Virus record (IMG/VR): IMGVR_UViG_3300044618_000117
Location: 1 to 25,617 of that record
Direction: 5' to 3' (one strand)
Length of the DNA stretch: 25,617 bases
From: a virus
Part shown: piece after piece, positions 2,482-5,270 of the stretch
Layout of the letters: every line of letters starts with the position of its first letter
Numbering within the stretch: the stretch's first letter is position 1
The notes under the pieces: generated by a model
What the model was told of the DNA's origin: nothing
Seen by the model: only the letters and a program-made list of their open reading frames with translations
The model's database searches: none
Program-made: the position numbers and the translations under genes

Positions 2482-2781
2482 TTAGGCCAACTTGGTTACT
2501 GCGTTCTTCTTGCCGCTACCAGCGCCACGCTTGGGAAGCAGGGCGATGTAGGGGTTGCCGAACCGGTTAGCCAACATCACAGGCTCTGTGCCGTCTTTGG
2601 CAATGAACAACGAATACTTGTTGATCGGAAACTTGAGCTTTTTGGAAAGCTCGGTCATCTTTGCATAGCATTCGCTAGCATTGGTCACCGAGTATTTACC
2701 CTCAGCATCTTTTTTCAGAGCAATCTCATCTTTGGTGTTCTTAACCACAGACACGGAACCCTCAAAGGTCTTTGCAGACAT
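2482..2781 (-). CDS. Early protein, paralogue of the 1051-1347 product (99 aa)
   Basis: AGGAG lies 7 nt before the ATG at 2781. An upstream in-frame start at 2808 has no comparable site and would break the alignment with the paralogue. Shared features with the 98-aa protein at 1051-1347 are the N-terminal GxVSV, a Lys-rich D-x-x-G-(K/N) segment, LxKKxK near the middle, ANRFGNPYIALLPKR near the C-terminus and a terminal KLA. The family is unknown to me. Being the first gene of its leftward group, behind a boxA-like leader and before a strong terminator, it is probably the most abundant product of the group. Confidence 0.75.
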   Translation of the reverse strand: MSAKTFEGSVSVVKNTKDEIALKKDAEGKYSVTNASECYAKMTELSKKLKFPINKYSLFIAKDGTEPVMLANRFGNPYIALLPKRGAGSGKKNAVTKLA

Positions 2782-2865
2782 AACTATCTCCTCAGTGATG
2801 ACCCTCATCCGGTGGCGGAATGCAACCTTCTAACGAAGGTCATCATGCAAGGAGACGCTATGTAT

Positions 2866-2877: not shown

Positions 2878-2948
2878 TTGAATCTTTGCAGCGAGATCAC
2901 TGCATCGACAAATTCAGACTCGCCGATCTTGCCAAAAGTGTCAAGTTG

Positions 2949-3025
2949 CCTCGCGCATAATGCGCGTAATGCGCATGTGCGCACATGATGTGCGTGCGCA
3001 CGTGATGCGCGTGCGTGACGCGAGG
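2949..3025. repeat. Alternating purine-pyrimidine palindrome cluster (Z-DNA/cruciform-prone)
   Basis: A 77-bp tract bounded by the inverted pair CCTCGCG (2949-2955) and CGCGAGG (3019-3025). Inside are a perfect 14-bp palindrome CATGTGCGCACATG (2974-2987), a perfect 10-bp palindrome CGTGCGCACG (2993-3002) and several variants of RTGCGY. Long stretches alternate strictly purine/pyrimidine. It lies about 140 bp upstream of the terminase genes. Confidence 0.75.
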
Positions 3026-3128
3026 GGGAGGGGGGTACATGGCTTGAGAAAAGCGAGGCCCCCGGTAGTTGTAGGCAACCTCTTAAACCAAGACCCAAAA
3101 AATAGGACGTGTAAAGTTACCTCATCCC

Positions 3129-3159
3129 TTGACACCCCCGTAACCCCCCGTGCTATATT
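3129..3159 (+). promoter_or_regulatory. Extended -10 promoter of the packaging genes
   Basis: TTGACA (3129-3134) and TATATT (3154-3159) are separated by 19 nt. The long spacer is compensated by an extended -10, TGC directly before TATATT. The expected transcription start falls at about 3165-3167, on the ATG at 3166. Confidence 0.6.
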
Positions 3160-3165
3160 GCGCTC

Positions 3166-3645
3166 ATGGACAACCTACCTCTCAATCACACCAAGTGGAA
3201 TGACCGTCTGGCCTTTGACGTAGCCCTGACCCTTGAGGGCAGTGGTGATACCTTGCAGGAGGTCATCACACGGCACCGCATCTCGGCCAACGACATCCTC
3301 ACGTTCAACGCCGACCCCATCTTTCTCAAGAAGGTGGAGGGCTACCGCACCGAAGTTCGGGAGAAAGGGCTGACGTTCAAACTCAAGGCCCGCGCCCAAG
3401 CCGAGGAGTTGCTGACAACCTCGTGGTTATTGATCCATGATGCGTCTGTGTCCCCCGCAGTCAAGGCCGACCTGATCAAGTCCACCGTGAAGTGGGCCGG
3501 GTTGGAGCCGAAGGACGCTGGCCCGCAGGACAACGGCACCGGTGGTGTGAAGATCACCATCAACCTTGGCAGCGACGCCCGCGATGCCCGTACCATTGAA
3601 GCAACCACTGTGGACGTACAAGATGCAACTGCCATCGAAAATTGA
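3166..3645 (+). CDS. terS: Putative small terminase subunit (159 aa)
   Basis: The small terminase would recognise the packaging site and deliver DNA to the large subunit. The assignment rests on position, directly before the large terminase with one small ORF between, on size, and on composition. The N-terminal half contains a helix-turn-helix-like stretch (GDTLQEVITRHRISANDILTFN, about residues 27-48). A charged helical segment follows (KKVEGYRTEVREKGLTFKLKARAQAEELL), suited to oligomerisation. The C-terminus is acidic, Thr-rich and probably flexible. No Shine-Dalgarno precedes the ATG, and the promoter -10 ends only six bases upstream, so the mRNA is probably leaderless. Homology was judged by eye only; it could be another DNA-binding protein. 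Confidence 0.65.
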   Translation: MDNLPLNHTKWNDRLAFDVALTLEGSGDTLQEVITRHRISANDILTFNADPIFLKKVEGYRTEVREKGLTFKLKARAQAEELLTTSWLLIHDASVSPAVKADLIKSTVKWAGLEPKDAGPQDNGTGGVKITINLGSDARDARTIEATTVDVQDATAIEN

Positions 3646-3892
3646 AGACCTGTTCACCCAAAACTTCAACGGCTTTCGCGCCGTGAAACTGCGCACCGCC
3701 ACCGAGGCCGTGGCCGTGGAGAACGCGCTGGGCCGCGCCAGCCTGTCGTTCCAGACCAAGATCACCCGCAGCAAGAAGCACGGACGCGAGTTCGTGATCT
3801 CGTTGGTGGACAGATTGACGAACATGGCGTGTACCCAGAACTGCGTGCAGGGGCGTGCCTGTACCTGTGCAAAGGCCCCCGATGGCGCTTGA
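3623..3892 (+). CDS. Small protein with Cys-rich C-terminus between terminase genes (89 aa)
   Basis: The ATG at 3623 overlaps the last 23 bases of the small terminase gene; upstream in-frame starts would overlap it further. The frame ends by overlapping the large terminase start. The protein begins MQLPSKIEDLF and contains a basic middle (FQTKITRSKKHGREFVISLVD). It ends in a Cys cluster, C-T-Q-N-C-x5-C-x-C, within the last 20 residues, which may bind a metal ion. The function is unknown. Its position and double overlap imply co-translation with both terminase subunits, so an accessory packaging role is a reasonable inference. Confidence 0.6.
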   Translation: MQLPSKIEDLFTQNFNGFRAVKLRTATEAVAVENALGRASLSFQTKITRSKKHGREFVISLVDRLTNMACTQNCVQGRACTCAKAPDGA

Positions 3893-5270
3893 CATCAACT
3901 ACACGCCGCCGCCCACGGGCAAACAGTTCATGGCCTCGGACGCCAAGATGCGCGTCCTCATGGGGCCAGTGGGTTCGGGCAAGTCCGTCACCTCCAGCTT
4001 TGAGATCGTGCGCAGGGCGTCCATGCAGGAACCCAACGCGCAGGGTATCAGGAAGACCCGAGCGGCCATCGTGCGGGAAACCGCCCGCCAGTTACAGGAC
4101 ACGACCATCAAGACGTTCCTCGACTGGTTCCCGCCGGGTGTGTGCGGGCAGTACATGCGCACCACCAAGACCTATTTCTTCAAGGTGGGGGACGTGGAGT
4201 GCGAGATCATGTTCCGGGCGCTGGACGACGCTGATGACGTTGCCAACTTGAACTCGCTGGAGTTGTCCTTCGCATGGTTCAACGAGTGCCGGGACATCCA
4301 CCCTGACATCATGGACGCCATGTCCAAACGTATTGGGCGATTCCCGTCGGCCAAGGACGGCGGGCCGACGTGGCACGGCATGTGGGGCGACACCAACCCG
4401 CCGACGATGGACGGCTGGTGGTACTACCAGATGGAAGGGCTTGACCCCAAGGACGGCGTGTCACCCAACAACAACGGGTGGGATGTGTTCCGGCAACCGT
4501 CGGGGCGCAGTCCCTACGCCGAGAACATTGAGAATCTGCCGGATGGGTACTACGACACTCAAGGCCGCAGCGAGGAGTACATCCGGGTTTACATCGACGG
4601 CGAGTACGGCCTCAGTTCAGCCGGTATGCCGGTGTACAAGTACTTCCGGCCTGACTACCACATGGCGAAGGATCGCCTGCGGGCCATCGTGAACGGGGTG
4701 CGGCCCATCGTCATCGGTATGGACTTAGGGTTAACCCCAGCAGCGGTGCTCGGTCAGCAAGACCCACGAGGGCGGGCGCTGATACTTGACGAGGCTGTCT
4801 CGTTTGACATGGGCATCCAGCGGTTCATCCGCACCATGCTCAAGCCGTTGCTGTACGAGCGGTACCCCGGCTCCCCGGTTCTCATCGTCGTTGACCCAGC
4901 GGGCGTGCAGCGGGCGCAGACTGACGAGCGCAGCGTGGTGGACATCATCAAGGCCGAGGGGATGCGTGTCATCCCGGCCAGAACCAACAGCATCTCGGCA
5001 CGCATCAACGCCGTGGACGAGTACCTCATGCGGCAGGTGGACGGCGACCCGGCGTTCCTCGTTGACCCACGCTGCACGCAACTCAAAGCGGCCATGATGG
5101 GCGGCTACCGGTACAAGCCCAAGGGTGACGGCGACATCGACAAGAACAAGCACTCGCACGTGGCCGAGGCGCTCCAGTACCTGATGTTGCATATTGCCAA
5201 CGTCGGTGAGGGGCACGCGCTCCAGCAGCGCCGGGACGTTAAAAGAACTTCTGCTCTGGGCTGGACGTGA
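3882..5270 (+). CDS. terL: Large terminase subunit, ATPase and nuclease (462 aa)
   Basis: This is the packaging motor that pumps DNA into the prohead and cuts concatemers. Numbering from the ATG at 3882 (AAAGG six bases upstream; a GTG at 3855 would add nine residues), the Walker A motif GPVGSGKS is at residues 28-35. The Walker B/catalytic carboxylate is in WFNE with Glu135. The RNase H-like nuclease has Asp281 in IGMDLG, Asp338 in VVDPAG and Glu429 in SHVAEALQY, the usual third acidic position. The length is normal for a podovirus large terminase. It overlaps the upstream 89-aa gene by 11 nt and is followed by an intrinsic terminator. Confidence 0.95.
   Translation: MALDINYTPPPTGKQFMASDAKMRVLMGPVGSGKSVTSSFEIVRRASMQEPNAQGIRKTRAAIVRETARQLQDTTIKTFLDWFPPGVCGQYMRTTKTYFFKVGDVECEIMFRALDDADDVANLNSLELSFAWFNECRDIHPDIMDAMSKRIGRFPSAKDGGPTWHGMWGDTNPPTMDGWWYYQMEGLDPKDGVSPNNNGWDVFRQPSGRSPYAENIENLPDGYYDTQGRSEEYIRVYIDGEYGLSSAGMPVYKYFRPDYHMAKDRLRAIVNGVRPIVIGMDLGLTPAAVLGQQDPRGRALILDEAVSFDMGIQRFIRTMLKPLLYERYPGSPVLIVVDPAGVQRAQTDERSVVDIIKAEGMRVIPARTNSISARINAVDEYLMRQVDGDPAFLVDPRCTQLKAAMMGGYRYKPKGDGDIDKNKHSHVAEALQYLMLHIANVGEGHALQQRRDVKRTSALGWT

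Follow-up and report, generated by a model that had tools for sequence, protein, structure and literature searches.

The window analysed here is a stretch of viral DNA of 25,617 nt (25.6 kb), positions 1 to 25,617 of IMG/VR record IMGVR_UViG_3300044618_000117. A palindrome-rich tract at 2949-3025 is flanked in it by a leftward gene (2482-2808) and a rightward small-terminase-like gene (3166-3645). The rightward order after the site is small terminase, large terminase (3855-5270), portal and major head genes. The product of the leftward gene has no family match. The features of the region are the following.

2482-2808, minus strand: leftward gene for a small conserved protein, downstream of the left block
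2906-2946, no strand: left block, 41 bp, with CGACAAATTCAGACT (2906-2920), a fixed step of 32-33 bp, then TGTCAAGT (2939-2946)
2947-3029, no strand: hypervariable, helically phased spacer, unrelated in sequence among relatives, lengths on a ladder of ~10.7 bp
2949-3025, no strand: tract with CCTCGCG/CGCGAGG ends, 14-bp and 10-bp palindromes and an alternation of 0.88; structure not conserved
3030-3119 (about), no strand: right block, roughly 85 bp, conserved over 51 clusters
3129-3159, plus strand: TerS promoter-like element, TTGACA (3129-3134) and TATATT (3154-3159, preceded by TGC), ending 6 bp ahead of the TerS ATG
3166-3645, plus strand: putative small terminase subunit (TerS), directly upstream of TerL, with a predicted N-terminal helix-turn-helix, helical hairpin and short beta tail
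3855-5270, plus strand: large terminase subunit (TerL), PHROG phrog_2 at 1e-30, Pfam Terminase_3 at 35.1 bits (cut-off 23.2)

The gene at 3166-3645 is termed small-terminase-like from its place before TerL, its predicted secondary structure and its fold matches, the best of which include the small terminases of E217, NV1, PaP3, Sf6 and G20c with weak but repeated scores. TerL is related to that of Mx8 (43% over half the query) and belongs to Terminase_3, a family that includes headful packagers; the Myxococcus phage Mx9 has been called headful by PhageTerm (PMC10281127). In 49 clusters the -35 element stands 34-37 bp from the TerS ATG, and no fitting ribosome-binding site lies between the promoter-like element and the ATG (window 3129-3166). 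Judged by sequence, the TerS transcript is probably leaderless, a trait conserved in the group.

The tract opens with CCTCGCG (2949-2955) and closes with CGCGAGG (3019-3025), enclosing perfect palindromes of 14 bp (CATGTGCGCACATG, 2974-2987) and 10 bp (CGTGCGCACG, 2993-3002). The G-rich run GGGGGAGGGGGG (3024-3035) follows, and 140 bp separate the end of the tract from the ATG of the small-terminase-like gene. These features had been described in an earlier note together with a near-strict purine-pyrimidine alternation and a location between divergent units, and all of them are found in the DNA, the alternation covering 88% of dinucleotide steps, whereas 51 related tracts average 53%. When the tract is folded together with its flanks as single-stranded DNA, both strands give multi-arm structures that are better than those of dinucleotide shuffles (z -4.2 and -5.1). 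Without the flanking G-run the excess is small only (z ~ -1.8 to -2.5), and the self-complementarity of the tract only modestly exceeds that of TGCG-type repeats.

The same note had read the tract as a cruciform- or Z-DNA-prone element, a claim that does not survive comparison with relatives. Over 51 tract clusters, which are sequence-distinct relatives clustered at 80% identity, there is no fold excess (mean z -0.18/+0.07 versus shuffles) and alternation stands at the random level, with the window (0.88) as an outlier from the mean of 0.53. Eight distinct tracts from the window's own clade have differing best folds (z +0.7 to -1.9) and none in common. Since relatives keep neither fold nor alternation and the clade shares no fold, a conserved cloverleaf, cruciform or Z-DNA element with functional palindromes is rejected as highly improbable, despite the better-than-shuffled folding of both window strands and the window's alternation. 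As far as the compared tracts indicate, palindromes and alternation are a peculiarity of the window's clade. A known structured RNA was also rejected, there being no Rfam match in the window, as was a palindrome of the protelomerase telRL type, since the palindromes are missing from most relatives. At the position of the tract, relatives carry unrelated GC-rich sequence or repeats, such as (GAGCC)n, (GTGC)n, GGCTGGC, GAGCGAGT and GGCTTGCTTTT; further types are TGCG palindromes and a semi-conserved AGGG..CCC..AGGGTTATTGC half. In one contig (L051) TerS is only ~81% identical to that of the window, yet the tract is nearly identical, which suggests that the site is exchanged separately from terS.

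The relatives number several hundred IMG/VR contigs, gathered with TerS queries; the phages that carry the site form a common group in lake water. The phage records searched contained no DNA-level relative of this region, and the Pseudomonas phage Rollin, with a TerS 34% identical, has no comparable block upstream. Near-complete genomes of the group measure ~55-59 kb; one half is structural and points rightward, the other is replication-type and points leftward, and the two diverge where they meet at the site. The rightward half of four of them (G001, G003, G004, G005) ends with a giant virion-type protein of ~2,750-2,820 aa, ~25-37 kb from terS.

Nearly all relatives carry both a left and a right block upstream of terS. 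The distance from CGACAAATTCAGACT to TGTCAAGT in the left block is 32-33 bp in all of the 51 tract clusters, and on the minus strand this block gives TTGACA-N17-GAGTCTG, which resembles a promoter for the leftward gene. The right block of the window is composed of the G-run (3024-3035), ACATGG (3037-3042), a loop, a C-run (3059-3063), ACCTCTTAAACCAAGACCC, an A6 tract (3097-3102) and CGTGTAAAGTTA (3108-3119). Across relatives the order is G-run, ACATGG, ~13 variable bases, C-run, GTAGTAAACCTCTTAAACCAAGACCC, A-tract and CGTGTAAAGTTA, the closing box after the A-tract also being given as GTGTAAAGTTA; ACATGG and the CGTGTAAAGTTA box are 69-71 bp apart in the 51 clusters. Each of five near-complete genomes contains one copy of the right block, with one further chance-like match, without the C-run, in G007. 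Exact matches to the right block in IMG/VR are followed by terS within 1.2 kb downstream in 111 of 116 cases; the remaining five comprise two with terS 1.4-3 kb on and extra DNA between, two at a contig edge and one chance match.

A leader peptide starting from the right-block ATG (MDWxxxxPPxL) was considered and rejected as not coding: the loop length varies by 1 nt, and the reading frame stops after 2 codons in the window's clade. Four contigs (L056, L081, L099, L155) carry the CGTGTAAAGTTA box in two or three tandem copies. L008, L014, L043, L041, L079, L169, L358 and L382 have extra DNA inserted after the GTGTAAAGTTA box and ahead of the TerS promoter, and several of these inserts contain homing-endonuclease-like (HNH) reading frames.

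Between the two blocks the length of the DNA is restricted. Measured from TGTCAAGT to ACATGG in 104 non-redundant sequences, spacer lengths pile up near 73, 83.5, 94, 106 and 116-120 bp, leaving empty gaps at 76-81, 86-90, 99-102 and 109-115 bp. The Rayleigh resultant for 51 clusters, which are not fully independent and whose G-run lengths are error-prone, is 0.67 at 10.8 bp, and none of 10,000 samples from a smooth null reached the observed maximum (p<=1e-4). The best-fit ladder step is 10.71 bp, with rungs at 73, 84, 94, 105 and 116 bp. Because the ladder was seen before it was tested, data outside the fit were used as a hold-out. The phase also holds for lineages that the first anchors had not picked up (n=20, p 9e-6; n=22, p 2e-5 with two visible misassemblies included) and for tracts found via the right block alone (n=11, p 0.014). 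Length changes were also reconstructed on the terS tree, since shared ancestry could mimic clustering. Of 48 such changes, 27 are of 1-3 bp, none of 4-6 bp and 21 larger, most of the latter being 9-12 bp (V-test p ~0.004). A single indel of exactly 11 bp separates the members of two near-identical pairs. The control interval, between right block and TerS start, shows no phasing (p 0.21), so the phasing belongs to the left-right spacer.

Two individual spacers deviate from the ladder: the window's own, with a left-to-right anchor distance of 98 bp, misses the nearest rung by 3.3 bp, which is more than a quarter turn, and the 103-bp spacer of L008 misses by ~2.4 bp. On the reading favoured here, the letters of the spacer hardly matter and its length in whole helical turns does. 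No strong 10-10.5-bp periodicity of WW, SS, TG/CA or GC steps, as is typical of wrapped DNA, occurs in the spacers, and WW and AA/TT show a weak excess at 11-12 bp. Spacers of the 51 clusters also exhibit a strong half-turn periodicity of 5-5.5 bp (z ~5 for CG, SS and AA/TT versus shuffles), which probably stems from their repeat units.

Free sequence combined with fixed rotation implies that one complex holds both blocks, by looping or wrapping. The phasing on which this builds is well supported, whereas the identity of the bound protein is not. Tentatively, the site is best read as a putative packaging-initiation (pac) region with a TerS-wrapped spacer, a reading that may well be correct and that is favoured because the wrapping model for SF6/SPP1 would predict just such a free-sequence spacer of 7-11 whole turns. 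In this three-part site of left block, spacer and right block, the whole-turn length would keep both blocks on one face of the DNA for a single nucleoprotein complex. Through its helix-turn-helix motifs the TerS ring would wrap the 7-11 turns of the spacer, making one sequence-independent contact per turn; specific recognition and/or cleavage determinants would come from the right block, and the complex would also cover the leftward promoter. TerS as the bound protein, the wrapping of the DNA and the start of packaging at this site are what we infer from this arrangement. In a stricter version, the spacer would evolve only in whole turns and the terminase ring would gauge 7-11 turns of any DNA lying between two fixed marks; this is on balance unlikely. 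The earlier guess of a packaging site (cos/pac) is retained as the leading functional reading on other grounds, namely the phased spacer between the blocks, the single copy per near-complete genome and the constant place upstream of terS.

Several findings count against the pac reading. The spacers of the window and L008 lie off the rungs (3.3 and ~2.4 bp), the spacers are GC-rich, unlike the AT-phased bent DNA of SF6/SPP1, the strong 10-10.5-bp dinucleotide periodicity is missing, and the fold match of TerS is weak. Regulation would be as good a fit as packaging for the left block, which is promoter-like, and for a related block at ~1400 that stands before a second leftward gene and has no right block.

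Contig ends may bear on the kind of site. More than 100 metagenomic contigs read through the block, and they share no end position. For unsorted DNA such as this, in which intracellular molecules could hide a cut, that tentatively disfavours a cos site cut in every genome. There is a modest excess of contig ends within 500 bp of terS, at no single base. When end overlaps were tested in six long contigs, four (G003, G004, G005, G007) placed them away from the site, a fifth (G001) placed them at the right block, and G006 shows none. A single cos-like contig end was rejected for lack of a shared base; several contigs start in the G-run or in repeats, which is better explained by assembly faults at the G-run, for example the fold-back start of G001. 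The start of this 56-kb contig (L026, position 1), GGGGCGGGCCCC at the G-run, differs from the contig's other end and is an assembly or sequencing artefact.

The main rival to the pac reading is a looped or wrapped repressor/activator switch, which is quite possible. Here, a phage regulator other than TerS would bind the left-block dyad and the right block, touching across the phased spacer, and would control the leftward and the late units. The left-block consensus contains this symmetric dyad, TTGACA...TGTCAA, which overlaps the -35 of the leftward promoter, and the block, itself promoter-like, lies upstream of the leftward gene. Short regulatory loops typically have spacings of ~80-115 bp in whole turns, which also speaks for a switch. 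Three points argue against it: the second leftward promoter-like block has neither a right block nor a phased partner, right block and TerS promoter are not phased with each other, and no candidate regulator was identified. That second block (CAGTCTCGCC..GTCAAGT, window ~1400-1436) resembles the left block and is also present in relatives.

A replication-origin element is less likely than the switch and rather improbable overall. An initiator would wrap the spacer, with the G-run/C-run dyad aiding unwinding or priming; the two halves of the genome diverge at the site, and in five near-complete genomes the cumulative GC-skew minimum is found at terS or within ~7 kb of it. This minimum varies in place, however, the dyad is too invariant for covariation to show, and the AT-rich region at 1434-1890 appears more origin-like. 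The latter is non-coding (~37% GC) and contains the repeated motifs AACAATCTA/TAGATTGT and TTGACACTTTACA/TGTAAAGTTA as well as a box similar to CGTGTAAAGTTA; it resembles a replication origin or a multi-operator region. Relief of supercoiling between divergent promoters, proposed in the earlier note along with an origin-linked role, is like the origin idea conceivable from the promoter-like left block, the divergent centre and the nearby GC-skew minimum, but neither has specific support.

The preferred pac reading can be compared with well-studied packaging sites. SPP1 pac is located at the terS gene and its promoters (PMC6316719). In the model for SF6/SPP1, TerS binds pac DNA sequence-independently, with neighbouring helix-turn-helix motifs about one DNA turn apart, ~100 bp wrap the TerS ring and sequence variation is highly tolerated (PMC4737164). 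As with pacL-pacC-pacR of SPP1/SF6, the site described here adjoins terS, overlaps promoters and accompanies a TerL of the Terminase_3-type family, and the proposed wrapping shares the extent of ~100 bp, the one-turn contacts and the tolerance of drift (PMC4737164, PMC6316719). In contrast to SPP1/SF6, two strongly conserved blocks here bracket a hypervariable, GC-rich spacer of 7-11 turns with quantised length. The pac DNA of SPP1/SF6 is ~80% identical, bent by AT tracts and equipped with other repeats; cutting at the present site is putative.

Lambda-type cos (cosQ-cosN-cosB) is likewise a multi-part site upstream of terS, in which the positions of binding sites and bends matter and the cosN-cosB spacing positions the cut (PMC4856287). 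The lambda spacer I2 is conserved in sequence, and deletions of 7 and 11 bp are both lethal, unlike the whole-turn changes tolerated here. The reading through of more than 100 contigs is a further difference from lambda cos, disfavouring a cut in every virion genome. Among regulatory systems, loops of the lac O1-O3 and gal type connect two protein sites ~8-10 turns apart on the same face, with free sequence between them. They differ from the present site in its ~85-bp, very conserved right block, and no candidate regulator is at hand here.

No description of a helically phased variable spacer at a packaging site was found in the literature searched. Conserved blocks, a hypervariable spacer, its phasing and the linkage to terS are directly observed in this group of phages. 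How small terminases pick their own DNA is an open question, and the arguments for ring wrapping come from a few model phages. Should TerS bind the spacer, its hundreds of natural variants, free in sequence and whole-turn in length, would be a ready-made experiment on this question. Even with a regulator as the bound protein, the natural 11-bp length series between conserved blocks makes phasing directly testable.
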